From: Burkholderia sp. BCC0322
Lineage (GTDB): Bacteria; Pseudomonadota; Gammaproteobacteria; Burkholderiales; Burkholderiaceae
NCBI RefSeq assembly: GCF_902833045.1
Contig: NZ_CADFDU010000001.1
Location: 372,001-436,000, forward strand
Length of the DNA stretch: 64,000 nt
Direction of reading: 5' to 3'
Within the stretch, counting starts at the first letter, position 1, and each line of letters begins with the position of its first letter. Shown one piece after another: positions 5,991-21,943 of the stretch. Under the pieces are notes generated by a model. That model was not told the origin of the DNA and did no database searches. It saw only the letters and a program-made list of their open reading frames with translations. The translations under genes and the position numbers were made by a program.

Positions 5991-6701
5991 TTACGCGCCG
6001 GCGCCGCCTTCGATTTCGGCCGTTGCGCGGCGCATGATGGCCGCGATGCGGCGCTGTTCGTCGGCGTCGGCGGCGCTCTTGTGCAGCAGCGCGCGCTTGA
6101 GCGCGAGGCGTGCCTCGACGAACTCCGGCAGCCAGCCTGCTTGCGCTTCTTCCTGCGTTTCGTTGCCCGCCGATTCCCCGGCGAACGCGCGGCGCATGAA
6201 TTCCATCTTGCGCGCGAGGTGCGTGAGGCGGGCGAACAGCGTGTCGACGCGTTCGCGCTGCGCGTCGAGATGGGTGCGGCCGGCGTCGGTCAGCGCATAG
6301 CGCTTGCGGTTGCCTTCCGCCTGCGACGCGACGAAGCCGACTTCTTCGAGATACGTGAGCGCCGGATACACCATGCCGGGGCTCGGGCTGTAGAAACCGT
6401 TCGAACGCGTGTCGAGCGCCTTGATCAGCTCGTAGCCGTGGCTCGGTTGCTCGGCGACCAGCGCAAGCAACAGCAGCTGGAGATCGTCGGAGCTGAACTG
6501 GCGGCCGCGCGGCATGCCGTCGTCGCCGAAATCGCCAAAGCCGCCGCGCCCGCCACGGCCACCGAACGGGCCGCCACCGAATGGATCGTGGCCGCGACGG
6601 TGGCGGCCGATCGCATGCCAAAGACCGGCGAACCAGTCCGGGCGAGCATGCGCACCATGACCGTCGCATCGGGCATGGCCGCGGGAGAGGGTGTGTCGCA
6701 T
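5991..6701 (-). CDS. PadR-family regulator, YqjI-like (metal-responsive)
   Basis: A 236-residue regulator. The first 65 residues are unusual: His- and Gly-rich (His at about 3, 9, 15, 18, 29, 33, 38; GGGPFGGRGGRGGFGDFG), then a PadR winged helix follows with HGYELIKALD, SPSPGMVYPALTYLEEVGFV and GNRKRYALTDAGR, and an alpha-helical C-terminal dimerisation part. E. coli YqjI has the same plan: a His-rich metal-binding leader plus PadR domain, repressing the ferric reductase YqjH in response to nickel/iron. Here regulator and reductase are co-directional rather than divergent. An AGATAT palindrome lies just upstream (6727-6740). The metal response is inferred by analogy. Confidence 0.85.
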   Translation of the reverse strand: MRHTLSRGHARCDGHGAHARPDWFAGLWHAIGRHRRGHDPFGGGPFGGRGGRGGFGDFGDDGMPRGRQFSSDDLQLLLLALVAEQPSHGYELIKALDTRSNGFYSPSPGMVYPALTYLEEVGFVASQAEGNRKRYALTDAGRTHLDAQRERVDTLFARLTHLARKMEFMRRAFAGESAGNETQEEAQAGWLPEFVEARLALKRALLHKSAADADEQRRIAAIMRRATAEIEGGAGA

Positions 6702-7130
6702 GATCGAGTCCTACATGTCGTAAAACATATCTAAAGATATATTTCGAAAGATAGGTCGTCAAGGGGATTTATTGGGGTTGGATGGTGGGGTGGGGTGTGT
6801 AGGTTGGCAAATGCAGGGTCTCAATGGCCGATATCGGCGACCGGTGCGGCCTGTCCCCTTCATGATTGCGGGCTCCCTCGACGTGTCGGCCTGCATCCCG
6901 GATGTCGTCATCTTCACGCCCACGCCTGTCACCGGACCGACCGGCGTTGGGATGGATGCAAATCATCCAGTAAGCGGCATTTTTCGACGCTTTACGTCGA
7001 AATTGCCGGTCCTTGAGATTTTTTTAGTCGCACCGAGACGATATGATTTCTTCAGCCCCAACATCGTCGGCCAATCCATGAAGCGCGCCAGCATCGCGGC
7101 GACGCGGCCCCGCAAGCACGAGAGAGTTGT
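6702..7130. other. Intergenic region upstream of the PadR gene
   Basis: About 430 bp. The 6702-6760 part is AT-rich and holds the presumed PadR promoter/operator. A G/T-rich run follows at 6770-6805 (purine-rich GGTTGGATGGTGGGGTGGGG type). From 6990 to 7060 another AT-rich patch may be the promoter of the gene at 7131. No gene is supported in this stretch. Confidence 0.5.
6727..6740. promoter_or_regulatory. Candidate PadR/YqjI operator ATATCT-N2-AGATAT
   Basis: A perfect 6-bp inverted repeat with a 2-bp spacer, 26 bp upstream of the PadR start codon, followed by a related half (ATTTCGAAAGAT, 6740-6751) and preceded by ATGT-N6-ACAT (6716-6729), which resembles the ATGT...ACAT sites bound by PadR proteins. 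It overlaps the likely -10 region, so autorepression is plausible. Confidence 0.55.
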
Positions 7131-7811
7131 ATGCCGGACACGCCAATCGTCATCGTTGAACACGCCCGCAGGCGAACCGCTCAAGTCCGGGCCGGCGATG
7201 TCCCCGCCGCCTTGCAGGATGGTCCCAAGTGGGTGTGCAGGATCGTCCCGGATCACGCACCGAGGTCCCGCGAAGGGCACCGATCCGCTGCACGCGCGGC
7301 TGAAATGCTCGGCCGACTGAAGCCTGCGAGCGTCGTGTTGACGGACCCTGTCCCGAGCGCCGGCGGCTGGCTGGCGCGCTCGTCGACCGATGAGGCCGGC
7401 CGGTGCCGCGCCTATGCGCATCTCGGTGCGAACCGGATCCTCGAGATGGTCGGAATGCCGGGTGTCGGCCCGTGGCTCGACGAGCACGACACCTGGTGGC
7501 CCGGCGCGTACGAGTTGCCGCTGCTCGAACAGTTGGCCGCGAACGAATCGCCTCTGCGCGACCTGCTTGATGCGACTGCACCCGCTCATTTGCTGATGAG
7601 CCTGACCGAAGTCGACGGCACCGCACTCGTGACCGAATCGGACGATGGCATCGAGCGTCCGTTCCGTATTCCCGCGGGTGTGGATACGGTCCATTTCGCA
7701 CCCGTATGCATCTGCGGGCCCGTAGCGCAGTGGCGCGAAACGCTCGTCACCGCGTTCGACCGCGTCCGGCATCTGGTCGGGCTCAGATCGGCCCGACCTT
7801 TCTATCTTTGA
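7131..7811 (+). CDS. Hypothetical protein (226 aa) upstream of the Lrp regulator
   Basis: An open frame with protein-like composition, especially from residue 85 on (AYAHLGANRILEMVGMPGVG, DEHDTWWPGAYELPLLEQL, VDTVHFAPVCICGPVAQWR). The first 30 residues are less convincing and the true start may be later. No known family is recognised. It lies 31 bp ahead of an Lrp-family gene on the same strand, so it may be co-transcribed with the amino-acid catabolic locus. The long minus-strand frame over it (6963-8051) is antisense to both this gene and the regulator and is not supported. Confidence 0.5.
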   Translation: MPDTPIVIVEHARRRTAQVRAGDVPAALQDGPKWVCRIVPDHAPRSREGHRSAARAAEMLGRLKPASVVLTDPVPSAGGWLARSSTDEAGRCRAYAHLGANRILEMVGMPGVGPWLDEHDTWWPGAYELPLLEQLAANESPLRDLLDATAPAHLLMSLTEVDGTALVTESDDGIERPFRIPAGVDTVHFAPVCICGPVAQWRETLVTAFDRVRHLVGLRSARPFYL

Positions 7812-7842
7812 CGCAAGCACCCGCTTTCCGGCAGGCCACGCC

Positions 7843-8340
7843 ATGACCGATGCACTCGACTCCTTCGACCGCAAGATCCTGAATATCGTCCAGCGCGATT
7901 GCACCGCGACTGCGGACGCCATTGCCGAGCGGATCGGCCTCTCCACGTCGGCCGTGCAGAAGCGGCTGAAGCGCATGCGCACCGAGAAGATCATTTCGGC
8001 GGAAATCGCCGTTGTCGATCGCGCGGCGGTCGGCAGGCCGATGACATTCATCGCGGCGATCGAGATCGAACGCGAAAACTACGAGACGGTCGCCAGGTTC
8101 CGCGAGTGGTCGAAGGCGCATGACGAAATCCAGCAGATCTACTACGTGACCGGCTCCGTCGACCTGATCGCGATCATCACTGCACACGACGTCGAGGCGT
8201 ACGACCGGTTGTCCGCGCGGATCATGCAGAGCAACCCGATGATCCGCCGGATCAACACGAACGTCGTGCTGAGCGCGGTCAAGGTCGGGCTGTTCGTGCC
8301 GGTCGACAAGGACGGCGACGACGAACCGACGGCCGCCTGA
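7843..8340 (+). CDS. Lrp/AsnC-family transcriptional regulator
   Basis: A 165-residue regulator. The N-terminal HTH is LDSFDRKILNIVQRD...AIAERIGLSTSAVQKRLKRM (residues about 4-50); the C-terminal RAM domain has the expected glycine motif (YYVTGSVDLIAII) that binds amino acids. It stands immediately upstream of the homoserine dehydrogenase gene, with an AT-rich gap (8420-8455, TAATTTGAAAATCGATT) that is a likely Lrp-type binding region. Together with a second Lrp-family gene at the end of the cluster it suggests that the locus responds to an amino-acid inducer. Confidence 0.9.
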   Translation: MTDALDSFDRKILNIVQRDCTATADAIAERIGLSTSAVQKRLKRMRTEKIISAEIAVVDRAAVGRPMTFIAAIEIERENYETVARFREWSKAHDEIQQIYYVTGSVDLIAIITAHDVEAYDRLSARIMQSNPMIRRINTNVVLSAVKVGLFVPVDKDGDDEPTAA

Positions 8341-8491
8341 CGGAGTTGTTTCGCTCGGGAACTGGCGATTCGCCCGTCCCGCATGACAAACCGCAACGGG
8401 TGACTGCCTGAATCGGGCGAAACGACTAATTTGAAAATCGATTCGCATCACTAACCTGTGTCATGTGGTCAATGAACAGGAGATGATCAAG

Positions 8492-9571
8492 ATGGAACTC
8501 AAACTGGCACTGGTCGGTTTCGGCGGAGTCAATCAGGGACTGGTCGAACTGCTCAAAAAGAAGCGCGCGATGCTGGGTGCGGCGGGACTCGACGTATCGG
8601 TGACGATGGTCGCCGACCTGCGGCTCGGGATCGCGACGAATCCTCGCGGCATCGCGCTGGACGTGCTCGACGAAACCGCTCGGCGGGGCGTCGATGCCGA
8701 AGCGCTGCGCCGCGATCCCGGCACGCTGGTGTCGCCGGACGTCGGTCTCGCTGCGGTGCTGAAGGCCATCGCATCGGACCATGTGGATGTCGTCGTCGAG
8801 GCGACCTTCACCGATCCGAACACCGGTGAGCCTGCGCTGTCGCATTGCCGTACCGCGCTCGAATGCGGCAAGCACGTGATTACGACCAACAAGGGGCCGA
8901 TCGCGCTCGCGCAGCCGGCACTGGCGCGGATCGCCGCGCAATCGGGTGCTTGCGTGATGTACGAGGGCACGGTGATGAGCGGCACGCCGGTGCTGCGGCA
9001 GCTCGCGACGTCGCTGCGCGGCTGCGACATCAACGGCTTCGCCGGCATCCTGAACGGCACGTCGAATTACGTGCTCGGCGAGGTCGAGGCCGGCGCGAGC
9101 TTCGATGCGGCGATCCGGGATGCGCAGCAGCGGGGCTATGCGGAGGCGAACCCGGCGGCCGACGTCAACGGTTCGGACGTACAGCTGAAAGTCGTCATTC
9201 TGGCGAACGCGCTGTGGAATGCCGGCCTCGAGCGTGGCGACGTGACGTGCCGCGGCATCGTCGAGCTGACCGAGCACGACGTGCGCGCGGCGGCGGCGGA
9301 GCGCATGTCCTGGCGCCTGATTGGTTCTGCCGTCCGGCATCCGGACGGCACCGTGACCGCGAGCGTCGAACCGCGCAAGCTGCCGGCCGGCCATCCGCTG
9401 CTTGCCGCGAACGGCGTGACGAACGCGATCACGTTCGACACCGACGTGCTCGGCGGGGTGACGATCAGCGGGCCCGGTGCGGGGCGCGAGGAAACGGCGT
9501 TCGCGATCCTCTCCGACCTGATCGAACTCGCGGACAGGATCGGCGCAACTGCGCACGAGGTGGCCGCATGA
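8492..9571 (+). CDS. Homoserine dehydrogenase (single-domain, no ACT)
   Basis: A 359-residue NAD(P)-dependent enzyme interconverting homoserine and L-aspartate-4-semialdehyde. The Rossmann motif GFGGVNQG is at residues 9-16; the substrate domain has [11 protein letters not shown] and the catalytic region [14 protein letters not shown], whose Asp and Lys match the acid/base residues of the family. It stops without the C-terminal ACT domain that gives threonine feedback control in biosynthetic enzymes, which suits a catabolic role. Of three possible ATGs (8465, 8483, 8492), 8492 has the best spacing (9 bases) from AGGAG at 8478-8482. Its stop overlaps the next ATG (ATGA). Confidence 0.88.
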
Positions 9572-10998
9572 GCGCGCGCGATGCGGTGATGACCGACTGC
9601 ACGGGAGCCGGCATAGCCGATGTCCGGTCGCCGTATGACGGCTCGATCGTCGGCCAGGTTCGGGTGTCGCGTGCCGACGCGGCGCCGGCCCTCGTCGAGC
9701 GCGCGCTCGACGGCGCGCGTGCGGCCGCAACCATGCCGCGCAGCCTGCGGGCCGACATCCTGTTTCGTGCCGCTGCGAGCGTGGAGGCACAAGCGGAGAC
9801 ATTTGCACGCAGGATCGCGCTCGAAGCGGGCAAGCCGCTGCGGCAGGCACGCAAGGAGGTCGCGCGCTGCGTGAACACGCTGCGCCTGTCGGGCGAGGAA
9901 GCGAAACGACTCAACGGCGAGACGATCCCGTTCGACGGCTATCCGGGCTCCGAGGATCGCAGCGGCTACTACACGCTCGAACCGCTGGGCGTGATTCTCG
10001 CGATCACGCCGTTCAACGACCCGCTGAACCTCGTTGCACACAAGCTCGGACCGGCGATCGGGACCGGCAACGCGGTAATCCTGAAGCCCTCGTTGCTCGC
10101 GCCGCTGTCCGCACAGGCGCTCGTCGAGGTGCTGTGGGAAGCCGGTGCGCCGCGCGACGCGCTGCAGATCGTGCATGGCGGCGCGGATATCGCGTCCGCT
10201 CTGGTGCGCGACCGGCGGATCCGAATGGTGACCTTTACGGGCGGCCCGCAGACCGGCGAGGCCATCACCCGCGATGCGGGACTCAAGAAGGTCGCGATGG
10301 ACCTGGGCGGAAATGCACCTGTGATCGTCATGGCCGACTGCGACCTGAAGGATGCCGCCGAATCCTGCGTGTCGGGCGCGTTCTGGGCGGCGGGGCAAAA
10401 CTGCATCGGCACACAGCGGATCTTCGTTGCCGAGGCCGCGTATGAGCCGTTCGTCCGGTATTTCGTCGAACTGACCGGCAGGATGGTCGTCGGCGATCCG
10501 CTGGACGACGCGACCGACATGGGGCCGATGATCGGGGAGGAACAGGCGATCCGCATCGAACGTTGGGTCGACGAAGCCGTGTCGCGCGGTGCGACGGTGC
10601 TGACCGGCCATCGGCGGCGCGGCGCGCTGTATGAACCGACCGTGCTCGCGGATGTGCCGCACGACGCGCGTGTCTGGGCCGACGAGGTATTCGCGCCAGT
10701 CGTGACGATCGAGAAATTCGCCGACCTGCACCACGCGTTCGACGCGGCCAATGCGTCGGAGAGCTGCCTGCATGCCGGCGTGTTCACCAGCCGCCTGGAG
10801 GTGGCGCTCGACGCGGCCGAGCGCCTGCAGGCGGGCGGCGTGATGATCAACGATTCGTCCGATTACCGCTTCGACGGCATGCCGTTCGGTGGTTTCAAGC
10901 ATGGGTCGCTGGGCCGCGAAGGCGTTCGGTTCGCGATGACGGAAATGACGCAGCCGAAGGTGGTCTGCTTCAGGCGCAACCGGCGGCTGTCGAGCTGA
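9568..10998 (+). CDS. Aldehyde dehydrogenase with Asp replacing the general-base Glu
   Basis: A 476-residue NAD(P)-dependent aldehyde dehydrogenase. The catalytic Cys is residue 279 in [11 protein letters not shown] and the TGG motif is in [13 protein letters not shown]. At the position of the usual general base (canonically Glu 34 residues before the Cys) the sequence is AMDLGGNAP with Asp245, an uncommon substitution. The start overlaps the homoserine dehydrogenase stop by 4 bp, so the pair is translationally coupled; the obvious inference is that this enzyme takes aspartate-semialdehyde made by its partner and oxidises it to aspartate. That function is inferred from context, not shown by the protein. 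Confidence 0.88.
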
Positions 10999-11078
10999 TG
11001 CGCAAGCGCCGGCGCCTGGCGGGCCGGCGCGGCGCGAACCGGAGCGGTTTGAGCAACGTATCGAAGAAGGAGTCGAGG

Positions 11079-11876
11079 ATGCCAGCAGCAATTCCTGCAT
11101 GCAAGCCGGCGGCGGACGCGCTGGTGGTCGAGGATATTCACAAGTCGTTCGGCGGTGTCGAGGTGCTGAAGGGCATCTCGCTGACCGCGAGGAATCATGA
11201 GGTCGTGTCGATCCTCGGCAGTAGCGGGTCGGGCAAGAGTACGTTCCTCAGGTGCATCAACTTGCTGGAAATGCCCGATCGGGGCCGGATTTGCGTGAAC
11301 GGCGAAACGCTTGCGTTGAAGCAGGCAGGCCGCGACGGCGCGCGCGTCGCGGCCGATGCGCAGCAGGTGATGCGCGTGCGCCGCAAGCTCGCGATGGTGT
11401 TCCAGCAGTTCAATCTCTGGGCGCACATGACCGTGCTGCAGAACGTGATGTTCGTGCCGGTGCGCGTGCTTGGCGTGCCGAAGCGCGACGCCCGCGACAA
11501 GGCGATCGCGATGCTTGAGCGGGTCGGGCTCGCCGGCAAGTGCGAACACTATCCGAACCAGCTGTCGGGCGGCCAGCAGCAGCGCGTCGCGATTGCACGT
11601 GCGCTCGCGACCGATCCCGACGTGATGCTGTTCGACGAGCCGACGTCCGCGCTCGATCCCGAGCTCGTCGGCGAAGTGTTGAAAGTGATGCGCTCGCTGG
11701 CCGACGAGGGACGCACGATGCTCGTCGTCACGCATGAGATGGGGTTTGCACGCGAAGTCGCGAACCGCGTCGTGTTCGTCCACCAGGGACGAATCGAGGA
11801 AGACGGCAGTCCCGATGAGGTGTTCGCGAGCCAGAAATCGCCGCGTTTCCAGAAGTTTCTGTCCAGCATCATCTGA
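11079..11876 (+). CDS. Polar amino-acid ABC transporter, ATP-binding subunit
   Basis: A 265-residue ATPase of the HisP/GlnQ/ArtP class. Walker A is GSSGSGKST, the signature [15 protein letters not shown], Walker [15 protein letters not shown] and the switch His is in VVTHEMGF. The start at 11079 has an AAGGAG site 7 bases away; the upstream 27 codons of open frame (from 10998) are not conserved-looking. It is 80 bp downstream of the aldehyde dehydrogenase and heads a complete importer with the binding protein and two permeases that follow. Confidence 0.93.
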
Positions 11877-11907
11877 TGCGGATTCAATGTCAACCGGAGG
11901 GGAAACC

Positions 11908-12687
11908 ATGAAGAAGCTGCTTCAGTTGCTGTGCGTGGGCGCGGCATTGCTCGGATCTCTCGCGCATGCCGAGCAGGTCGTGCGGATCGGCACACTCGCC
12001 GATTACGCGCCGTTCGAATACAAGGATGCGTCCGGCAAGCTGCAGGGCATGGAGATCGACATCGGCAAGAAGATGTGCGACACGATGAAGGTCAAGTGCC
12101 AGTGGGTGACGATGGATTTCGACGCGCTGATTCCGGCACTCAAGGCGAAGCAGATCGATGCGGTGCTCGCGCAAATGTCGAAGACGCCGGAGCGCGAGCA
12201 GTCGGTGGACTTCACGCGCATTTTCACGACGGCACCCGTGCAGCTCGTCGCGAAGCAGGGTTCGGGCATCACGGACAGCCCTGCCACGCTGCGCGGCAAG
12301 ACGATCGGCGTTCAGACGGCATCGACGCACGAATCCTATCTGCGCCGCCGCCTGCCGGCGAGCAAGTCGGGGATCAACGTGAAGGTCTATCAGACGCTCG
12401 ACGAGGCATGGCTCGATCTCGAGGCCGGACGCGTCGATGCGGTGCTCGCCGACAACACGGTCGCGTACGACTGGCTGACGAAGGCCGGCAGGAAGGAAGG
12501 TTTCGACTTCGTCGGCAAGCCGATCGCCGATGCGGAAATCTTCGGCGACGGTACGGCGATCGCGGTACGCAAGGGTGACGCGCCGTTGAAGGCGCTGTTC
12601 GACAAGGGCATCGCGCAGGTGCAGGCGGATGGCACGTTCGCCGCAGCCAACAAACGCTATTTCCCGTTCATCATCGCGCCGCAATAA
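11908..12687 (+). CDS. Periplasmic amino-acid-binding protein of the ABC importer
   Basis: A 259-residue solute-binding protein. Residues 1-21 are a Sec signal peptide (MKKLLQLL...LAHA, cleavage after AHA). The mature part has the family-3 pattern: VVRIGTLADYAPFEYKDASG, the MEIDIG block and the TMDFDALIPALKAKQIDAVLAQM block, followed by RGKTIGVQTAST. These are the features of Lys/Arg/ornithine/His-type binding proteins, so a polar or cationic amino acid is the likely cargo. The start has a GGAGGGG site. A GC hairpin separates it from the permease genes. Confidence 0.92.
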   Translation: MKKLLQLLCVGAALLGSLAHAEQVVRIGTLADYAPFEYKDASGKLQGMEIDIGKKMCDTMKVKCQWVTMDFDALIPALKAKQIDAVLAQMSKTPEREQSVDFTRIFTTAPVQLVAKQGSGITDSPATLRGKTIGVQTASTHESYLRRRLPASKSGINVKVYQTLDEAWLDLEAGRVDAVLADNTVAYDWLTKAGRKEGFDFVGKPIADAEIFGDGTAIAVRKGDAPLKALFDKGIAQVQADGTFAAANKRYFPFIIAPQ

Positions 12688-12702
12688 CCGCGCATCGGGA
12701 CT

Positions 12703-12729
12703 GCGCGGCCGCCGGACGGCGGCCTGCGC
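12703..12729 (+). terminator. Intercistronic GC hairpin after the binding-protein gene
   Basis: A stem GGCCGCC / GGCGGCC with a 4-base loop, extended by GCGC / GCGC, lies between the binding-protein stop (12687) and the permease start (12759). Such hairpins often stabilise the upstream message or partly terminate, giving more binding protein than permease. No U-run follows, so it is not a strong terminator. Confidence 0.5.
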
Positions 12730-12758
12730 GATCCGGGCTCACAAGGAGCGATATCACG

Positions 12759-13436
12759 ATGGACATCTTGGTGAACTACGGCGCGCAGATCGCGGCTGGC
12801 GCGCTGGTCACGCTGGAGCTCGCGGTCAGCGCGCTATGCGTCGGCATGCTGCTCGGCATCGCCTGCGCATCGGCAAAACTGTCGAGCCTGGGCTGGCTCA
12901 GGCATGCGACCTATGCGCTGACCAATTTCCTGCGCGGCATTCCCGAGTTCCTGATCCTGCTGATCTGCTACTTCGGGCTGTCGCGTCTGCTCAACGCGCA
13001 ATTCGATGGCGCCGTGGTGATCAGCCCGTTCTCCGCCGGCGTGATCGCGCTCGCCGTGGTGTTCGGCGCCTATTCGTCGGAGATGTTCCGCGGCGCATTC
13101 ATCGCGGTGCCGCCCGGGCAGATCGAGGCCGCGCGCGCGTACGGGATGACACGCCTGCAGACGCTGTGGTACGTGCGCCTGCCGCAGGCGTGGCGCATCT
13201 GCCTGCCGAGCCTGAACAACATGTGGCAGAACTTGCTGAAGGACACGTCTCTGGTATCCATCGTCGGGCTCGAGGACATGTTGCGCAAGGCGAACATCGC
13301 CGCGCAGTTCACCAAGCAGCCATTCGTTTTCTACGTGACGGTCGGAATCGTCTATTTCGGCTTTCTCGCTGCATCCAACCCGGTGTTCGCTTGGCTCGAG
13401 CGCATCGCGGGCCGCGGTTACGCAAAACCCATCTGA
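12759..13436 (+). CDS. Amino-acid ABC transporter permease (HisQ-like)
   Basis: A 225-residue inner-membrane subunit with five predicted helices. The N-terminal ALVTLELAVSALCVGMLLG and the EAA-type loop (QIEAARAYGMTRLQTLWYVRLPQAWR) identify the HisM/HisQ class. FLRGIPEFLILLICYFG replaces the common FRGTPLL segment found in its partner. It is 13 bp upstream of the second permease. Confidence 0.92.
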   Translation: MDILVNYGAQIAAGALVTLELAVSALCVGMLLGIACASAKLSSLGWLRHATYALTNFLRGIPEFLILLICYFGLSRLLNAQFDGAVVISPFSAGVIALAVVFGAYSSEMFRGAFIAVPPGQIEAARAYGMTRLQTLWYVRLPQAWRICLPSLNNMWQNLLKDTSLVSIVGLEDMLRKANIAAQFTKQPFVFYVTVGIVYFGFLAASNPVFAWLERIAGRGYAKPI

Positions 13437-13449
13437 GGAAAGCCAGGCG

Positions 13450-14145
13450 ATGAACGACTTTCTCTCCCTCATCGTGCAGTCCGGCCCCGACGTCGCGCGC
13501 GGTATATGGATCACGCTCGCGCTGCTGGTGCTGTCATGCACGCTTGCGTTCGTGCTCGCGGTGCCGCTGGCTGTCGCGCGCACGTCGGCGTGCCGGTGGC
13601 TGTCGACACCGAGCCGCCTGTTCATGTCGGTGTTTCGCGGCACGCCGCTGCTGGTGCAGATTTTCGTGCTGTATTACGGGCTTGCGCAGTTCCCGATCGT
13701 GCGTGCGTCGCCTCTGTGGCTGCTGGTCGGCGGATCGTTCTCGTGTGCATTGTGCGCGCTGACGCTCAATCTCGCGGCTTACATGGCGGAAGACATCCGG
13801 GGCGGGATCGCCGGCGTCCCCGCCGGCGAGAAGGAGGCCGCGCTCGCGTTCGGGATGAGCCGCTCCATGCTCACCTGGTTCGTGATCGTGCCGCGCGCAA
13901 TTGGCATCGTCGCGCCGACGCTCGGCAACGAGATCGTGCTGCAGCTGAAGTCGACCGCGCTGGCCAGCACGATCACCGTGCTCGACCTGACCGGTGTCGC
14001 GCGGCGCATCTCCATCGAAACCTATACGACCGACGCGCTGATGCTGGCCGGCATCGTGTACGTCGGTATCACGGCTGTGCTTTCGACCGTGCTCAAACGC
14101 GTCGAGGGCCTGCTGAATCGCCATCTGGGCAGCGCGCGTGCCTGA
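13450..14145 (+). CDS. Amino-acid ABC transporter permease (HisM-like)
   Basis: A 231-residue inner-membrane subunit, partner of the preceding permease. It has the signature FRGTPLLVQIFVLYYGL and the EAA loop (GEKEAALAFGMSRSMLTWFVIVPRAIG), plus five hydrophobic segments. Together with the ATPase and the binding protein it completes a polar amino-acid importer. The cystathionine-synthase-like gene starts 44 bp later, so importer and enzymes form one transcription unit. Confidence 0.92.
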   Translation: MNDFLSLIVQSGPDVARGIWITLALLVLSCTLAFVLAVPLAVARTSACRWLSTPSRLFMSVFRGTPLLVQIFVLYYGLAQFPIVRASPLWLLVGGSFSCALCALTLNLAAYMAEDIRGGIAGVPAGEKEAALAFGMSRSMLTWFVIVPRAIGIVAPTLGNEIVLQLKSTALASTITVLDLTGVARRISIETYTTDALMLAGIVYVGITAVLSTVLKRVEGLLNRHLGSARA

Positions 14146-14189
14146 CGGGCGCCGCATGAACGCGACACAACGAACGATCCGAGGACGAC

Positions 14190-15359
14190 ATGGGATACAA
14201 GCTTGAAACGCTGGCTCTCGCCGCGGACCGCGACGTGACCGACGAGAAGTCGGTTGCGCCGGCGATCCACTATTCGGCGGTGTTCAAGGCAGCCGGCAGC
14301 GAGGAATTCGCGGAGATGTCGAGCGTGCCGCAGCATCCGCGCAACTACACCCGCTACGGCAATCCGGTTCACGAGCGCGTGAAGGCGATCATGGCGGAGC
14401 TCGAGGGCACCGAGACCGCGCTCGTCACGGCATCCGGAATGGGCGCGATCGCGACCGCGATCCTCAGTGTCGTGAAGGCCGGCGATCACGTCGTCGGCCA
14501 GACGCGTCATTACATGAGCACCACGAAGATGCTCGACGACCTGCTGCGCCGGTTCGGCGTCGAGGTGACGTTCGTCGACCAGACCGACGTGGCCGCGTTC
14601 GATCGCGCGATCCGGCCGAACACGCGGCTGATCGTGCTCGAGTCGCCGGTCAATCCGCTGCTGCTCGTGACCGACATTGCTGCGGTGACTGAAATCGCGA
14701 GAGCCCGCGGCATCCTGACGCTCGCGGACAATACGTTCGCGTCGCCGGTCAACCAGCAGCCGCACCGGCTCGGTGTCGACATCGTCGTGCACAGCGCGAC
14801 CAAGTATCTCGGCGGCCATCACGACCTGACCGGCGGCGTGATCTGCACGAGCCGCATGCTCGCCGAGCAGATCTGGCATACGCACATCACGCTCGGCTCG
14901 GTGCTGTCGCCGATGGACGCGTGGTTGCTGCTGCGCGGGCTGCGCACGCTGCCGATGCGCGTCGAGCGGATCAACGCGAACGCCCAGGCGCTCGCCGAAT
15001 TCCTCGAGGCGCATGCGAAGATCGAGCGCGTGTTCTATCCGGGCCTGCGCAGCCATCCGCAGCATGGGCTCGCATGCCGGCAGATGCGCGGCTTCGGCGG
15101 CGTGGTCGCGTTCGGCGTGCGGGGAAGTTACGTCGAAGCGCAGCGCTTTGTCGAGGCGCTGCGCTTGCCGCTGAATGCGGGCAATCTCGGCGGCGTCGAT
15201 TCGCTCGCGATCCATACGGCATCCATGTGGGCCGGCACGATGTCGGCGGAGCAAATGCGCGCGGCCGACATCCCGCTCAATTTCATCCGCTATTCGGTCG
15301 GCATCGAGCACATCGACGACCTGAAAAGCGATATCGCGCAAGCATTGGAGCAGATCTGA
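14190..15359 (+). CDS. PLP-dependent Cys/Met-metabolism enzyme (gamma-lyase / gamma-synthase type)
   Basis: A 389-residue fold-type I PLP enzyme. The Schiff-base lysine is in VVHSATKYLGGHHDLTGG; ASGMGAIATAIL binds the cofactor phosphate, the PLP-contact Asp is in LTLADNTFASP and the RYSVGIEHIDDL ending is the family signature. Members act as cystathionine gamma-synthase, O-acyl-homoserine sulfhydrylase, methionine gamma-lyase, S-methylmethionine hydrolase or canavanine gamma-lyase; sequence motifs alone do not separate these. Because homoserine dehydrogenase, an aldehyde dehydrogenase and an importer surround it, release of homoserine by cleavage of an imported gamma-substituted amino acid is the most economical guess. 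Confidence 0.88.
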   Translation: MGYKLETLALAADRDVTDEKSVAPAIHYSAVFKAAGSEEFAEMSSVPQHPRNYTRYGNPVHERVKAIMAELEGTETALVTASGMGAIATAILSVVKAGDHVVGQTRHYMSTTKMLDDLLRRFGVEVTFVDQTDVAAFDRAIRPNTRLIVLESPVNPLLLVTDIAAVTEIARARGILTLADNTFASPVNQQPHRLGVDIVVHSATKYLGGHHDLTGGVICTSRMLAEQIWHTHITLGSVLSPMDAWLLLRGLRTLPMRVERINANAQALAEFLEAHAKIERVFYPGLRSHPQHGLACRQMRGFGGVVAFGVRGSYVEAQRFVEALRLPLNAGNLGGVDSLAIHTASMWAGTMSAEQMRAADIPLNFIRYSVGIEHIDDLKSDIAQALEQI

Positions 15360-15463
15360 AACGGGCCGGCGCGCACGCTCGATCGACGTCTCGCGTGCGT
15401 CGCGCGAACCCTTGAATCGATTCGGGCACGAGATGCGCGGATTGCAACCACGGAGCACGGACT

Positions 15464-16393
15464 ATGCATGACATCACAGTACTCGACGGCGGCATGGGGC
15501 GCGAACTGGCGCGGATCGGGGCGCCGTTCAGACAGCCGGAATGGTCGGCGCTCGCGCTGATGGAAGCGCCGCATTACGTCAGTCTCGCGCACGACGCGTT
15601 CGTCGCGGCGGGCGCCGACGTGATCACCGCGAACAGCTATGCGGTCGTGCCGTTCCATATCGGCGAGGAGCGGTTCCGTCGCGACGGTGTCGCGCTCGCG
15701 GCCCTAGCCGGGCAGCTCGCGCGGCAAGCGGCGGACCGCGCGGGGCGGCCCGTGCGCGTCGCGGGATCGCTTCCGCCGACGGGCGGTTCCTACCGCCCCG
15801 ACCTGTTCGACGCGGCGCGCGCGGATGCGATCCTGGCGACGCTCGTCGAAGGGCTCGATCCCTACGTCGACCTGTGGCTGGCCGAGACGCAGAGCCTGAC
15901 CGACGAAATCGGCGCGGTCCGGCGTGCGCTGGGCGGGAATCCGAAGCCGCTGTGGGTCTCGTTCACGCTGCGCGACGACGTCGACGCACGTGCCGCACCG
16001 GTGCTGCGGTCGGGGCAGTCGCTCGACGAAGCGATCGAAGCGGCCGTGTCCGCGCACGCGAGCGCGCTGCTGTTCAACTGCAGCCAGCCGGAAGCGATGG
16101 GGGCGGCGATCGACGCGGTGCATCGCACGCTCGTGCGCTCGGGCACGACGCTCGCGATCGGCGCCTATGCGAACGCGTTTGCGCCGCAGCGTGCCGATGC
16201 GCGTGCGAACGAGGAACTCGACAGCTTGCGCGGCGACATCGATCCGCCCGGTTACGCAAAATGGGCGCGGCAATGGCTCGCGCTGGGCGCTCAGATCGTC
16301 GGCGGCTGTTGCGGAATCGGCCCCGACCACATCGCGGCGGTGCGCGACGCGGTGGACGCCCGCGGCGCCGCGCATCCAGGGTCCGGCCAATGA
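15464..16393 (+). CDS. Homocysteine S-methyltransferase (MmuM-like)
   Basis: A 309-residue zinc enzyme that moves a methyl group from S-methylmethionine (or SAM) to homocysteine, forming methionine. The TIM-barrel start ITVLDGGMGRELARIG and the three zinc cysteines (LFNCSQPEAM near residue 204; GGCCGIGP near residue 285) are intact. Length fits MmuM (about 310) and excludes the large cobalamin enzyme. Its stop overlaps the start of the second Lrp gene (ATGA). Its presence favours S-methylmethionine as a substrate or by-product of this locus. Confidence 0.9.
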   Translation: MHDITVLDGGMGRELARIGAPFRQPEWSALALMEAPHYVSLAHDAFVAAGADVITANSYAVVPFHIGEERFRRDGVALAALAGQLARQAADRAGRPVRVAGSLPPTGGSYRPDLFDAARADAILATLVEGLDPYVDLWLAETQSLTDEIGAVRRALGGNPKPLWVSFTLRDDVDARAAPVLRSGQSLDEAIEAAVSAHASALLFNCSQPEAMGAAIDAVHRTLVRSGTTLAIGAYANAFAPQRADARANEELDSLRGDIDPPGYAKWARQWLALGAQIVGGCCGIGPDHIAAVRDAVDARGAAHPGSGQ

Positions 16394-16827
16394 AGATCGA
16401 CGGCCTCGACCGGAAGATCATCGACGCATTGTGTGTCGATGCGCGGATACCGCTTGCAGTGCTGGCCGACAGGATCGGTCTGTCCAGGCAGGCGGTCCGC
16501 AACCGGATCGACCGGCTCGAAGCGCTGAACGTCATCGCCGGGTACACGGTTCGGCTCGCATTGCCCGACGATGTCGTGCCGGTGCGCGCCGTGATGCTGG
16601 TTTACCGCAAGGACCGGATGCGCGGTGCGGACGTGCTTGCCGCACTCGAACGGATCGCCGAGGTTCGCGATTGCGCGGTCCTCAGCGGCGAGGTCGATTT
16701 GCTCGTGCAGATAGAGGCCGCCACACACGAGCGCATCAGCGATATCTGGGCGACGATCAGTGCGATGGACGGTGTGCAAAACATGACGACCAGCTTCGTG
16801 CTCGATTCGGTTGTCCGCAAGCGTTGA
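16390..16827 (+). CDS. Lrp/AsnC-family transcriptional regulator (second of the locus)
   Basis: A 145-residue Lrp-family protein: HTH at residues about 3-50 (IDGLDRKIIDALCVD...LADRIGLSRQAVRNRIDRLEAL) and a RAM-type ligand domain ending VQNMTTSFVLDSVVRKR. It is coupled to the methyltransferase gene by a 4-bp overlap and closes the transcription unit. It is not a close copy of the Lrp protein at 7843, so the two could sense different ligands or form a hetero-oligomer. Confidence 0.9.
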   Translation: MKIDGLDRKIIDALCVDARIPLAVLADRIGLSRQAVRNRIDRLEALNVIAGYTVRLALPDDVVPVRAVMLVYRKDRMRGADVLAALERIAEVRDCAVLSGEVDLLVQIEAATHERISDIWATISAMDGVQNMTTSFVLDSVVRKR

Positions 16828-18074
16828 CCAAACTGGCGCGATGGGGAAAGAACTGGTGGGGCTGGATGGTGCGGTGCCTTCCACAGGTTGCCGATCAGCC
16901 GGAAATCGCCGCTTCCGATCGAGACGCATTCTGATTCAAGGTCACTTCCGCCGCCAAATCCTGTCATTCGCCTGCATTTTGGCTGGGACATTCGAATCTC
17001 GGCTCAACCCGGGTATCGGCCGCTCGCCTTGTCGTGCCGGCAAACTAAAAGAAAGAGGCACTTCGGCGACACGCGAAGATGGGCCGGCAAGGTGAAGCGG
17101 GTTTCTGAATAGGTGGGGCGGAAACCGTACTGCGGAAGGACGCCGAGACCAGTCAGCCCTTCCCCTGTTTTTTGTCGCTGAACATTGCTTTACCGCAACC
17201 CGTCTGCCACCGGTCCCTGAAAGATGTGTCCGGATGATCTCGCCCTATTAGTAGTGACAAGGTAACCGTACCGAGTAGGCGGTTCTCTTAACAAGGGGAC
17301 GTTCGCATTCACGAGAAATTTGCAGGTCGCGATACGGAATCGTGAGATTTCCGACAGAGGAAATTCTCAAGAACGTGCCTGACTTGTTGATTTGTATAGG
17401 GGGCGGTTCGCTGAGGCCCTGCAGCGTGCGGCGGAGATGGCCGTCGATGCCTCCCACCGAGTTCGTTGGCGAGCCGGTCGCGACGACCGGACGGTCGGCG
17501 CCTTGCCGACGTCTGCAGCCTTTGCCAGCCATTGGCCGCGACACCCCTGAACTTCGCAGTAATTCATGTAATGCAATCTGCTAAAACACCGGTGACCATT
17601 ATTTAAATCGATTGAACTATTTAATTTATTTTCTTTTGATCAAACAAAATTTCCGTGCCGGCAAAGGTATTTAAATTCACCCCGTCATCCAATGTGGTGT
17701 TTCTGCTTGATGCAGGCCTGTCAAGGCTCGCAAGGCAGTGAAGATTTTCGACCCTTTATACATCGAATTGAAGCGTTGCCGAAAATGTAAAGCATTGCAA
17801 TATCAAGGCGGGATTTGAGTATTTCGGTTGCGGCGCATGATTTTGTTTGGCAGGATTTTCATCAGGTTGCTCGAATTTAAAACAACAAAACAGCCGGCCA
17901 TTCAATCAGCCGAAATAACGCGCGCCGGATGAGCAACGATTCGAAAAGAAGCTGACGAAAAACTGGTAACGAGGCGGCGAACGGTCGACATCGTTCGCGA
18001 TCATTGAATCAATCGCTTTCCCGGGCGTCGATGCGTCACTCGAGCGATCCGGGCGAATCCGATACGGGGCAGCC
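16828..18074. other. Long intergenic region (1.25 kb) without a recognisable gene
   Basis: No convincing coding region on either strand; the frames at 17248-17544 (minus) and 17342-17584 (plus) are short and match nothing I know. Base composition falls sharply at 17580-17900 (long A/T runs), likely promoter sequence for the FHA-kinase operon. 17281-17403 contains two motifs resembling the insertion-element ends of the 55-62 kb island, so a decayed element is possible. Confidence 0.5.
17364..17403 (+). repeat. Insertion-element-end-like motif (diverged copy)
   Basis: The segment starts TTCTCAAGAACGTGCCTG and ends GATTTGTATAGGGG. It aligns along its length, with one gap and moderate identity, with 57289-57328 and more weakly with 61943-61979 in the distant mobile island. 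A second weaker half (GTTCTCTTAACAAGGGGACG) lies at 17282-17301. No transposase gene is adjacent, so this would be a solo, decayed end. Confidence 0.4.
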
Positions 18075-19076
18075 ATGGCGATACTCAAGAACGATTCTTC
18101 CGGGGAAGCGTGCCTGCTCCGCGCGTATCACGTGTTCGGCCGCGATTCCGCGCGCTGCGATACGGTCATCCGCGACGCGTCGGTGTCCCGTGTCCACGCC
18201 CATATTCGCTGGGTCGGCGGGCTATGGGAGCTCCACGATCACAGCAGCAACGGTACGTCGGTATCGGGCGTGACGCTGCGCGACGGCGAGCACGCGGTGC
18301 TGCAGCGAGGCGACGTGATCCGGTTCGGCAGGGCGGGTGTCGCTCCCTGGCGCGTCGATGCGCTCGACGATCCGGCCGATACGCTGTGGCCGGTGCGGGG
18401 CGCCGCGCATCCGATCGTGCTCACGCCGCGCCAGATCCTGGCGGCCCACGCCGCGCAGCCGGTCACGATCGTCCGGACGCCGGCCGGCGAATGGCTGTGC
18501 GACGACACGTTGCCGCCGCGCGCGCTCCATGACGGCGACGAAGTGTCGACGGGCGACTTCACGTGGCGCGTGGGGCTCGTGCGCCACGGCTCGACGATGA
18601 CGCTGCGCGCGCCGGCCGATCCGGCCGCGCCGGCCCGATTGCTCGAATTCTTCGTCAGCCGGGACGAAGAGCACGCGCGTGCGCTGCTGCATGTTCGCGG
18701 CGGCGTGGTCGACCTCGGCGAGCGGGCGCATCACTACAGCCTCGTCACGCTCGCCCGCGCACGTTCGGCCGACATGCAGGCCGGCTACGACGCCGCCACG
18801 CAAGGCTGGATCGAACTCGATCGGCTGGCGCGCATGCTCGGTATCGATACGTCCCATCTCAACGTGCAGATTCATCGCGCCCGGAGCCAGTTCGCGGCGC
18901 TACCGGGGCTGGATGCGAGTCAGCTTGTCGAGCGGCGGCGCGGCAGCGTCCGCTTCGGCGATTTCCCGTTCCGCGTCATGCGCGGCGAGCGCCTTGAATG
19001 CCAGTCGGTGCCGGGCGTCGAGCCGCGCATCGGCATGCATCGTCCGGCGCCGGTTCCGGTCGTCCACTGCTCGTGA
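18075..19076 (+). CDS. FHA-domain protein with C-terminal winged-helix-like region
   Basis: A 333-residue protein. Residues about 15-85 form a forkhead-associated phosphothreonine-binding domain with the conserved VFGRD, SRVHAHI and HSSNGTSV elements. A second part (about 100-190) is beta-rich and may be a degenerate second FHA-like unit; residues about 215-310 (HHYSLVTLARAR...GWIELDRLARMLGIDTSHLNVQIHRARSQF...RRGSVRFGDFPFRV) resemble a winged-helix DNA-binding domain. Its TGA overlaps the GTG of the kinase gene (GTGA), implying coupled translation. The natural reading is a phospho-signal receiver or substrate of that kinase, possibly a regulator. Confidence 0.8.
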   Translation: MAILKNDSSGEACLLRAYHVFGRDSARCDTVIRDASVSRVHAHIRWVGGLWELHDHSSNGTSVSGVTLRDGEHAVLQRGDVIRFGRAGVAPWRVDALDDPADTLWPVRGAAHPIVLTPRQILAAHAAQPVTIVRTPAGEWLCDDTLPPRALHDGDEVSTGDFTWRVGLVRHGSTMTLRAPADPAAPARLLEFFVSRDEEHARALLHVRGGVVDLGERAHHYSLVTLARARSADMQAGYDAATQGWIELDRLARMLGIDTSHLNVQIHRARSQFAALPGLDASQLVERRRGSVRFGDFPFRVMRGERLECQSVPGVEPRIGMHRPAPVPVVHCS

Positions 19077-21943
19077 ACGCGGAACGACAGTCCGGGTTGC
19101 CGACGGCGACACGCGCACCCGTCGTCCCGCACGCGCGTGAATCGCCGCAGTCCGCCGCGCCGTTCGCGACGTTGGCCGGCCAGCGGCATTACCAGCTCGG
19201 TGCGTTGCTCGGCGAAGGTGGCAGCGGCATGGTGTTCCGCGCGACCTGCGACGAGACGGGGCAAGACGTCGCGATCAAGCTGATGCGGGACGATGTCGCG
19301 CGGACCGCAGCCGAGCGCGCGCGCCAGCGCATGCGCTTTCAGCGCGAGACAGGCCTGTGCGAGGCGCTGCGGCACCCGAACATCGTGGCGCTGCTGGACA
19401 AGGGGGAAGCACCCGACGGGCGGCTGTTCGCCGTGTTCGAACGCGTGCAGGGCCGAACCCTGCGCGACCGGCTGGCGATGGAGGGACCGTTGTCGGCCGT
19501 CGACACGGGACGGCTGATGACGGAGGTGCTCGATGCGCTCGCGGCGGCGCATCGCCGCGGCATCGTGCATCGGGATCTGAAACCGCAAAACATCGTGATC
19601 GCGATGGCCGACGACGGGCCGCACGCGAAGCTTCTCGATTTCGGGATCGGTGCGCTGTTGCCCGGTGCGACAGATCTCGCGCCCCAGGCTGCGACGCTTG
19701 CGGCCGAGGTGCTCGGCTCGCCGTCATATTGCGCGCCCGAGCAATTGCGCAACGAACCGCCGACGCCCGGAAGCGACCTGTATGCGTGGGGCCTGGTCGT
19801 GATCGAATGCCTGACGGGCGAAGTCGTGATGCAGGGCGCAAGCGTCGCCGACATTCTTTATCAGCAGCTCAGCCCGGTGGATATCGCGCTTCCGCCGTCG
19901 ATCGCATCGCATCCGCTCGGCTCGGTGCTGCGGCTCGCGTTGAGCAAGAATCCGGCGCAGCGTGCCGCCTCGGCCAACGAACTCGTGGCGCCGTTTCGCG
20001 CGCTCAATTTCGCCGCGCTGGTGGGCCCGTTCGATGCCGGCCGTACCAGCCGGCGCACGCGGCCGCGCCCGTTCACGCCGCGCAGCGAGGCGGCCGCGAC
20101 GGCTGGCGAATACCGGCAGGTCACCACGCTGTGCTGTTGCGTGACGATCGCCGGAGACGGCCGGCAACGCCATGCGGGAACCGATCATGGCGCCCTGCTC
20201 GACCGCTACGAGGCGCAATGGCTGACGAAGTGCGTGGATATCGCCGTCGGCTATGGCGCGCTGGTCGACGCGCGGCTCGGCGACACGCTGCTGTTCCATT
20301 TCGGCCTGCAAGGCGACATCGACCGGCCCGCGCGCCGTGCGGCGCGTGCGGCACTCGACATGGTGCGGGTGGCCGGCCGCGCGCGGTTGCCGGCGCCGGC
20401 CGACGCCCACGATGCCGTCGGCGGCGCAGGCTGGCACGTCGACGTGGCGGCTGCGATTCACGTCGGGCAGGTTCTCGCGCATGCGTCGCAGATCGCGGGC
20501 GGATCGACGCCGGCCGCCGCGTCGCGGTTGTTGCGGCTTGCCGCGCCCGGGCAGATCCTGATCAGCGACGATGCGCGGCTCGCGCTCGAACCGCATGCCG
20601 ACTTCCGGCCGACCGTGTTGCGGCTGGCGCGCGCGGGCCTCGCGCCGCAGCCGGTGCATGAACTGCTCGGCGAGTGTCGGGCCGATACGCCGTTCGATTC
20701 GCTCGACGACGGCGTGAGGGCGCCGATGATCGGCCGCACGCGTGAACTCGATGCGCTGCTGCGCGCGTGGCGGGCGACGCGCACACGCCATCGTCGTGCG
20801 ATGCGTGGCGTGCCGCGGCTCGTCGTCGGCGATGCAGGAATCGGCAAGTCGCGCCTCGTGCACGCGCTGTGCGAGGCCGTGCGCGCACAGGGCCACGCGT
20901 TTGCGCATTGCGGGTGCCTGCCCGAGCGGGAGAATCATGCGCTGTTTCCGATCCTGCGGTTCATCGGCGCGCATTGGCAACTCGACGCCGACAGCCCGCC
21001 CGGCACCACGCGCGCGGCGATCGACGCGATGCTCGCCCCGCTCGAATGCGATCGGGTGGCGGCCCGTGTCACGCTCGCGACCTGGCTGGGGCTGCCCTGC
21101 GATGCGAACGAGGCGCGATGGTCGAGCGCACGCGAACCGCACGCGCTGTTCGACGTCCTCGAGCAATTGATCGTGTCGCTCGGCAACGGCGCGCCGGTGT
21201 TGCTCGTCGTCGAGGATGTGCAGTGGATCGACCACTCGACCGAGGCGTTTCTTGCGTACCTGCAGCGCTCGCCGCGCGCGGCGGCGCTCTGCGTCGTGCT
21301 CACTTCGCGACCCGCCAGGCTCGCGCGCTGGCGCGGCGCGACCGAAGGCCTGATACTGCGCCGCCTGCCGCGCGACGATGCGCGGCGCCTGATGTCGGCG
21401 TGCCTGGGCGAGGGCGCGCTCAATCCGGCCTGGCTCGACCCGCTCGTCCATCGTACGGCGGGCATTCCGCTGTTCATCGAGGCCGTCGCGCGCGAGCTGG
21501 CGACGAGCGGTGCGGACAGCCCGCACGCGGGGCTGCGAACGACCGACCCGTGCCCGCTGCCGCTCAGTCTCGGCGGAATACTCGGGCGCACGTTCGACCG
21601 GATCGACGACGCGCGCGACACCGCGCAGCTCGCCGCGACGATCGGGCTCGAGGTCGATGCGCACCTGCTGGCCGCGGCATCGCCGCATGATCGCGCGACG
21701 CTCGACGCGCACCTGCAACTGCTGCTTGAAGAGCGGATCATGTTTGCGCGGCATCGGCGCGATCGCGTGTTCTATTCGTTCCGTCACGCGTTGATTCGCG
21801 ACGCGGCATACGCGTCGATGCCGCCGGCCGTGCGGCGCGCGAACCATGCGCGAGCCAGCCGCGCGCTGGCCGCGCAAGCCGATCGTGGCGACGCCACACC
21901 CGCATTCGGCGTCGACGGACACTTCGTGCGCGCGTGCATGTGA
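19073..21943 (+). CDS. Ser/Thr kinase - degenerate class III cyclase - AAA ATPase fusion (TOMM-type kinase/cyclase family)
   Basis: A 956-residue multidomain protein. Kinase (about 40-300): GEGGSGMVF, VAIK (Lys69), HRDLKPQN, LLDFG and CAPEQL are intact. Cyclase-like domain (about 345-520): starts EYRQVTTL as in adenylate cyclases, but CCCVTI stands where FCDLVGST is expected, so the first metal Asp is missing, and the late catalytic Asn is replaced (GSTPAAASRL); GDTLLFHFG is kept. ATPase (about 565-900): Walker A GDAGIGKS, Walker B LLVVEDVQWID. The architecture matches Burkholderia kinase/cyclase fusions linked to thiazole/oxazole-modified peptides, but those are longer; the C-terminal repeat region seems absent and no modification enzymes are nearby. 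Start: GTG overlapping the FHA stop. Confidence 0.82.
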   Translation: MNAERQSGLPTATRAPVVPHARESPQSAAPFATLAGQRHYQLGALLGEGGSGMVFRATCDETGQDVAIKLMRDDVARTAAERARQRMRFQRETGLCEALRHPNIVALLDKGEAPDGRLFAVFERVQGRTLRDRLAMEGPLSAVDTGRLMTEVLDALAAAHRRGIVHRDLKPQNIVIAMADDGPHAKLLDFGIGALLPGATDLAPQAATLAAEVLGSPSYCAPEQLRNEPPTPGSDLYAWGLVVIECLTGEVVMQGASVADILYQQLSPVDIALPPSIASHPLGSVLRLALSKNPAQRAASANELVAPFRALNFAALVGPFDAGRTSRRTRPRPFTPRSEAAATAGEYRQVTTLCCCVTIAGDGRQRHAGTDHGALLDRYEAQWLTKCVDIAVGYGALVDARLGDTLLFHFGLQGDIDRPARRAARAALDMVRVAGRARLPAPADAHDAVGGAGWHVDVAAAIHVGQVLAHASQIAGGSTPAAASRLLRLAAPGQILISDDARLALEPHADFRPTVLRLARAGLAPQPVHELLGECRADTPFDSLDDGVRAPMIGRTRELDALLRAWRATRTRHRRAMRGVPRLVVGDAGIGKSRLVHALCEAVRAQGHAFAHCGCLPERENHALFPILRFIGAHWQLDADSPPGTTRAAIDAMLAPLECDRVAARVTLATWLGLPCDANEARWSSAREPHALFDVLEQLIVSLGNGAPVLLVVEDVQWIDHSTEAFLAYLQRSPRAAALCVVLTSRPARLARWRGATEGLILRRLPRDDARRLMSACLGEGALNPAWLDPLVHRTAGIPLFIEAVARELATSGADSPHAGLRTTDPCPLPLSLGGILGRTFDRIDDARDTAQLAATIGLEVDAHLLAAASPHDRATLDAHLQLLLEERIMFARHRRDRVFYSFRHALIRDAAYASMPPAVRRANHARASRALAAQADRGDATPAFGVDGHFVRACM

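Follow-up and report, generated by a model that had tools for sequence, protein, structure and literature searches.

A canavanine-gamma-lyase that releases homoserine and hydroxyguanidine is described in passages of PMC10018355, along with a B3/4 editing protein, CtdA. The Rhizobium plasmid pRL8 has a homoserine region whose described role is the catabolism of free homoserine (Vanderlinde et al. 2014, cited in passages of PMC10228743). The same passages place a rhizobial homoserine dehydrogenase, ortholog pRL80071, near the homoserine-catabolism cluster and assign it to a novel family that is strongly unidirectional in favor of oxidation. The subject of this report is a block of genes in a 64-kb stretch of DNA from Burkholderia sp. 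BCC0322 (contig NZ_CADFDU010000001.1, positions 372,001 to 436,000), referred to below as the window. Judged from their sequences, these genes quite probably encode a catabolic pathway in which a substrate is imported, converted to homoserine, and oxidized to aspartate semialdehyde and then to aspartate.

Extent and conservation of the block

Ten co-directional genes lie on the plus strand at 7843-16827: an Lrp/AsnC-family regulator (Lrp1), a homoserine dehydrogenase (HSD), an aldehyde dehydrogenase (ALDH), an ABC ATPase, a binding protein, two permeases, a pyridoxal phosphate (PLP) enzyme, a homocysteine S-methyltransferase-like protein (HMT) and a second regulator (Lrp2). The intergenic gaps range from -4 to +124 bp, with 4-bp overlaps at HSD/ALDH and HMT/Lrp2 and spacings of 13-124 bp elsewhere. 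At a Pfam threshold of E <= 0.001, the domains identified were an AsnC-type HTH and an Lrp/AsnC ligand-binding domain in both regulators, Homoserine_dh with an NAD-binding domain, Aldedh, ABC_tran, SBP_bac_3, two copies of BPD_transp_1, Cys_Met_Meta_PP and S-methyl_trans. The ten genes of the initial annotation (two Lrp regulators, an HSD without an ACT domain, ALDH, a full importer, PLP and HMT, co-directional with short gaps) are therefore all present with Pfam backing. The 4-bp overlap that it reported between HSD and ALDH was borne out, and that of HMT and Lrp2 is a second. The extent that it gave, 7843..16827, does hold the ten genes, but the unit is larger; the block boundaries and an additional gene upstream, upORF (7131..7811, plus strand), had been missed.

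Window positions 1-24000 were compared by BLASTN with six loci (L013, L014, L016, L018, L022 and L121). The unit common to them is a block of ~9.9 kb, from ~6.9 to 16.85 kb, that starts between 6869 and 7014 and ends between 16827 and 16861. The outermost match, to L013, covers 6869..16850 (no strand assigned), and those to the other five run from 6925-7014 to 16827-16861. DNA identity within the block was 83-94%. The flanks of the six loci, as far as they were fetched (only ~240 bp on the right of L013), gave no match of more than 150 bp, and the sole other match above this length was a 76% one inside an ABC gene (L022). In L018, the block is interrupted between the PLP and HMT genes, where an extra dapA gene sits. 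Because the block is conserved at this level of identity while its flanks share no such match, the gene set is far more than a chance assembly. Moreover, one common block set between flanks that differ from locus to locus appears to move as a single, horizontally mobile unit.

A gene-by-gene comparison was made with 17 distinct other loci (L013-L023, L120, L121, L077-L079 and L080; L122 repeats L018). HSD, ALDH, the four ABC genes, PLP and Lrp2 were present in all 17. The upORF and Lrp1 were found in 16, both being missing from L080, and HMT in 13; the loci without HMT are L077, L078, L079 and L023, the last with an apparent HMT remnant. Five loci carry dapA (L017, L018, L019, L021 and L120). 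L080 and L077-L079 belong to other families within the same taxonomic order. The closest loci are those of Paraburkholderia lacunae, Burkholderia stagnalis and B. ambifaria, with 97-98% PLP identity. In the environmental relative Paraburkholderia sacchari LMG 19450 (L020), this identity is 92%.

The locus PLP enzyme was detected in 12 of 121 searched relatives of genome G012 (E 1e-130 or better), and the same 12 genomes carry the upORF. Relatives of the enzyme at E 1e-95 or better occur in 21 of 399 genomes of the order. The surroundings of 19 of these were inspected (G130 and G296 were left out), revealing a full locus in four and no HSD in the fetched stretch of the other 15, which for G113 was only 4.4 kb.

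The upORF encodes an uncharacterized protein of 226 amino acids and is a near-constant neighbor of the locus, ending 31 bp upstream of Lrp1. Searches of Pfam and NCBIfam gave no match to this protein, which shows distant homology to SLFN_AlbA_2 proteins in their C-terminal domain. In the 121 genomes searched, the only match beyond the 12 carriers was a weak one inside an SLFN_AlbA_2 protein of G415. A scan for sigma-70 promoters and terminators found them no commoner than expected by chance. A terminator-like stem with a T-rich tail lies at window positions 7775-7798, within the 3' end of the upORF; such sites are rarer than chance in the region and this one may mean nothing. Just downstream of the block are a gene for an FHA-domain protein (Pfam; 18075-19076) and then a long reading frame at 18998-21943.

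The probable homoserine route

HSD (8465..9571) has a GTG start as listed, although a downstream in-frame ATG is possible. The protein passes the NF004912 model (441 bits against a cut-off of 373) and has the Homoserine_dh domain without the ACT domain. ALDH (9568..10998; 476 amino acids) has a GQNC motif and probably converts aspartate semialdehyde to aspartate; none of its best 25 NCBIfam models reached the cut-off. The two enzymes are 48-50% and 58-60% identical, respectively, to those of rhizobial plasmid loci. These include four loci that were taken, on gene content, for the canavanine loci of Hauth et al. 2022 (L036, L037, L039 and L045; 49-50% and 58-60%), the pRL8 region (L038; 50% and 58%) and L044. 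Importer, PLP and SMR genes are likewise present in the four canavanine-type loci, and a B3/4 protein is encoded in the fetched stretch of L036, L037 and L039 (L045 is cut). We assume that the HSD gene of L038 is pRL80071. By its similarity to the rhizobial enzymes, the locus HSD would be a catabolic enzyme working in the direction of oxidation.

Two Homoserine_dh genes were found in all ten of the searched locus genomes and one in each of the five searched Burkholderia genomes without the locus. A second Homoserine_dh gene was likewise found in G118, next to ALDH and Lrp genes where a contig ends. This Lrp-HSD-ALDH group (L133, G118 contig 17), in a second f14 genome, is probably a cut copy of the locus. 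The dapA gene of L018, the single one checked, passes TIGR00674 (337 against 206). DapA consumes aspartate semialdehyde, and the presence of dapA in five sister loci fits aspartate semialdehyde as an intermediate. The matches to the rhizobial HSD and ALDH and these dapA genes lend support, at the level of sequence, to the initially proposed order of import, gamma-cleavage to homoserine, and oxidation to aspartate semialdehyde and then aspartate.

Both regulators are Lrp/AsnC-family proteins, Lrp1 (7843..8340) with 165 amino acids and Lrp2 (16390..16827) with 145. Lrp2 is 43-46% identical to the Lrp proteins of the rhizobial homoserine and canavanine loci.

From the gene content, its conservation, the clade structure described below and the co-occurrence of the genes, we infer the reactions, the direction of flux and the substrate as follows. 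The polar amino-acid-type ABC importer would take up an alpha-amino acid with a leaving group on C-gamma. The PLP enzyme would strip this group, leaving L-homoserine, which the ACT-less HSD would oxidize to aspartate semialdehyde and ALDH, in turn, to aspartate. In some of the sister loci, DapA may also draw on the semialdehyde. One or both of the Lrp proteins may sense the substrate or a product.

The possibility was considered that homoserine itself is imported, as in pRL8, and that PLP and HMT form a side branch leading to methionine from a homoserine-derived precursor. HSD, ALDH and Lrp2 are indeed common to the pRL8 region, whose fetched 17 kb gave no such PLP match. However, PLP is present in 17 of 17 loci and HMT in 13, indicating that PLP belongs to the core and not to a side branch. 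Furthermore, no homoserine acyltransferase was recognized among the block genes, and the homoserine kinase annotated in L036, L038 and L039 is not among them either. This alternative is considered improbable.

The PLP enzyme, the binding protein and canavanine

The PLP enzyme (14190..15359, plus strand) is a member of the Cys/Met family. Among its best 25 NCBIfam models, none reached the cut-off. It scored 374.4 against 522 for NF006003 (O-succinylhomoserine sulfhydrylase) and 354.6 against 549.7 for TIGR01328 (methionine gamma-lyase). In a tree of 58 rows, the 16 locus rows, comprising this enzyme and 15 other locus-linked enzymes, form one clade (100/100), and the six canavanine-lyase rows form a separate one (100/100). 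The MetZ rows, MegL and a cystathionine-lyase-like row fall outside the locus clade, and the rows that pass NF006003 (L005 and L095) branch elsewhere. All 16 members of the locus clade are accompanied by HSD, ALDH and the importer. The sister group of the clade consists of Burkholderiales enzymes (L081-L087) with no HSD in the ~19 kb fetched around each. The locus enzyme is probably gamma-cleaving and homoserine-releasing. Grouping with cystathionine gamma-synthase or acyl-homoserine sulfhydrylase, named in the initial annotation as the outcome that would speak against a gamma-cleaving role, did not occur, since the enzyme by its sequence belongs to a clade of its own.

Two distant relatives, 48-50% identical to the locus enzyme, are encoded on plasmids. 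L040, from Cupriavidus oxalaticus, lies with an aminotransferase and a D-amino acid dehydrogenase among transposases, and L041, from Streptomyces, lies with an Lrp regulator and an amidohydrolase.

A methionine gamma-lyase pathway, in which methionine yields methanethiol, ammonia and 2-oxobutyrate and the dehydrogenases act on something else, would accord with the appearance of TIGR01328 among the best-scoring models. However, the score of 355 bits is well short of the curated cut-off, the locus enzyme has YMST where the reference enzyme L107 has a YGCT motif, and the HSD/ALDH pair would be left without a function. Such a pathway is highly improbable.

The identification of the enzyme as canavanine-gamma-lyase was rejected, as it lies outside the 100/100 clade of these enzymes and is 36-40% identical to them. 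Canavanine could still be degraded to homoserine and hydroxyguanidine by an independently recruited gamma-lyase, followed by HSD and ALDH. The logic of importer, PLP, HSD and ALDH is that of the rhizobial loci, including the order ATPase, binding protein, permease, permease, PLP. Additionally, a plasmid of the beta-proteobacterium Paraburkholderia hospita carries a canavanine-lyase island (L123, ~9-24 kb of the locus, in an unannotated record) with a CtdA-like gene, an ABC importer, Lrp, HSD, ALDH, canavanine-gamma-lyase, SMR and also an upORF homologue. The gamma-lyase of the block is nevertheless not of the canavanine-lyase clade, and the accessory genes differ. A standalone B3/4 gene of the CtdA type was found in five of five canavanine-lyase plasmid records (W01-W05; L045 was left out) and in one of 15 distinct locus genomes. 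The latter correspond to 16 handles, of which G413 and G439 are the same by coordinates. In 14 of the 15, only a PheT-sized frame was present. G040 (f28) has one more frame, which lies on the contig of its locus at a distance of ~42 kb; the encoded protein shares 57% identity with rhizobial CtdA, a point in favor of canavanine.

In the 64-kb window, tblastn with rhizobial CtdA found no match, whereas the same query finds the P. hospita protein at 48%. The window likewise gave no match to an SMR transporter; in L013, an SMR gene lies upstream of the block. Since Rfam had no match at E <= 1 within window positions 6700-17800, there is no guanidine riboswitch in that interval.

The importer consists of a HisP-like ATPase (11079..11876), the periplasmic substrate-binding protein (11908..12687), and HisQ-like and HisM-like permeases (12759..13436 and 13450..14145). 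The nearest solved relatives of the binding protein are lysine/arginine/ornithine-binding proteins, and it narrowly misses the TIGR01096 cut-off for these (246.9 against 256.35). Its pocket is largely kept within the locus family, unlike that of the canavanine-locus protein. The two differ at positions 52, 69, 70, 117 and 122, at which the compared rows of the locus family agree; the f14 row differs from the other locus rows at positions 120 and 121. Canavanine would also leave HMT without an evident role. Taken together, canavanine catabolism is quite unlikely, and the initial disfavoring of this substrate has gained new support from the PLP tree and from the CtdA-type genes.

Candidate substrates and comparison with known systems

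HMT (15464..16393, plus strand) is an optional part of the locus. It matches PF02574 at 200 bits, and its three-cysteine site is intact, C206, C282 and C283 aligning with cysteines of the homocysteine S-methyltransferase 5dml; we take these to be zinc ligands. HMT (E 1e-60 or better) was found in 10 of the 12 locus genomes and in two of the 109 others (G447 and G022), giving a Fisher p of ~3e-11 that is uncorrected for kinship and linkage. The association is partly trivial because HMT lies inside the block. According to passages of PMC12366255, enzymes homologous to HMT take a methyl group from S-methylmethionine, betaine or dimethylsulfoniopropionate (DMSP). Burkholderia thailandensis makes S-methylmethionine via BurB, as stated in passages of PMC12542666, so that the compound does occur in the genus.

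S-methylmethionine is a common plant compound. Because HMT travels with the locus, this compound is favored, tentatively and on sequence evidence, as the most likely single substrate. The PLP enzyme would then release dimethyl sulfide, and HMT, where present, would methylate homocysteine using part of the S-methylmethionine. The block as a whole might be an S-methylmethionine utilization island, made up of the importer, a PLP gamma-cleaving enzyme that previously lacked a gene and yields dimethyl sulfide and homoserine, the homoserine-to-aspartate route, and an accessory upORF that possibly has a fold like that of S-adenosylmethionine decarboxylase; this fuller proposal is somewhat doubtful.

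Several observations weigh against S-methylmethionine. HMT falls below the cut-off of NF007020 (PRK09485, MmuM-type; 108.9 against 215 bits), and its family does not fix the methyl donor, as relatives use S-adenosylmethionine, betaine or DMSP. HMT is missing from four of the 17 loci, and none was found in the carrier genome G010 beyond a distant 30% match; the core pathway therefore does not need HMT. In the active site of the PLP enzyme, no residue was recognized that would be specific for a sulfonium leaving group. Position 11 of the binding protein is Leu and not the acidic residue of lysine/arginine/ornithine-binding proteins; the canavanine-locus protein has no acidic residue there either. 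Finally, the upORF homologue of P. hospita (43% identity; L105:10408-11139) adjoins a canavanine-gamma-lyase. The choice of S-methylmethionine in the initial annotation rests on HMT and is weakened by the loci and the genome that lack it.

The substrate could instead be another gamma-substituted homoserine derivative, such as O-acetylhomoserine, the seleno-analogue of S-methylmethionine, or a plant or microbial homoserine conjugate. The downstream module says only that homoserine is released, the PLP enzyme is about as similar to O-succinylhomoserine sulfhydrylases (374 bits) as to methionine gamma-lyases (355 bits), reaching the cut-off for neither, and the f28 loci that lack HMT retain the same pocket residues. 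However, the co-occurrence of HMT is unexplained unless the substrate has a methylated sulfur or selenium, and a derivative of this kind is on balance unlikely.

Relatives of HMT and HSD also occur in other settings. An HMT relative (56%) is followed on the same strand by an amino-acid permease (Pfam) at L130:5817-8238, an mmuPM-like pair, and another, in L129, lies beside genes that by eye resemble an oligopeptide transporter. In the f28 genomes L101 and L102, the HMT relative is beside genes that by eye resemble MetN, MetQ, cystathionine beta-synthase and cystathionine gamma-lyase; a profile scan of the last reached no cut-off. A divergent amino-acid transporter and an oxygenase-like gene are present there too. 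The neighbors of the HMT relatives in L130, L101 and L102 count in favor of S-methylmethionine. On the Agrobacterium fabrum plasmid pAt2788b (L044), HSD, ALDH, dapA and aspartate ammonia-lyase genes are next to a gene of the octopine/nopaline-dehydrogenase family and an ABC importer, near tra genes; this locus possibly serves an opine-like homoserine conjugate.

The block may represent a second and independent means of living on gamma-substituted amino acids via homoserine, built on a PLP clade to which the NCBIfam models tested give no function. If S-methylmethionine is the substrate, the block would supply the genes for dimethyl sulfide release by bacteria in soil and rhizosphere and might serve as a metagenomic marker. 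Since clade and locus match in 16 of 16 cases, a single binding protein and a single enzyme would be enough for a direct test of the substrate.

Uptake of S-methylmethionine in E. coli is by a permease. The E. coli mmuPM system (Thanbichler et al. 1999, cited in passages of PMC12366255) has a methyltransferase of the same Pfam family as HMT with the zinc-ligand cysteines. It makes methionine, whereas the block has an ABC importer and a proposed PLP cleavage to homoserine. Methionine gamma-lyase, O-succinylhomoserine sulfhydrylase and cystathionine gamma-synthase/lyase share PF01053, the PLP-lysine and the Tyr/Arg motifs with the locus enzyme, which forms a separate clade. The pRL8 region is alike in HSD, ALDH, Lrp (43%) and an amino-acid ABC transporter, and differs in having a homoserine kinase and, in its fetched 17 kb, no match to the PLP enzyme or HMT of the window. 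The canavanine-gamma-lyase loci of Rhizobiales and Pseudomonadaceae (L036, L037, L039, L045 and L123 by gene content) share the PAAT importer, the Cys/Met PLP enzyme and the HSD-ALDH pair with the block; an Lrp regulator is found in L036, L037, L039 and L123, and dapA in the four rhizobial ones. The block departs from these loci in the clade of its PLP enzyme (36-40% identity) and in its binding protein (33-40%), in having neither a CtdA nor an SMR gene, and in the addition of HMT and Lrp1. Its gene content and conservation suggest a real, conserved and apparently mobile homoserine-releasing island that is a variant of the canavanine-lyase locus type.

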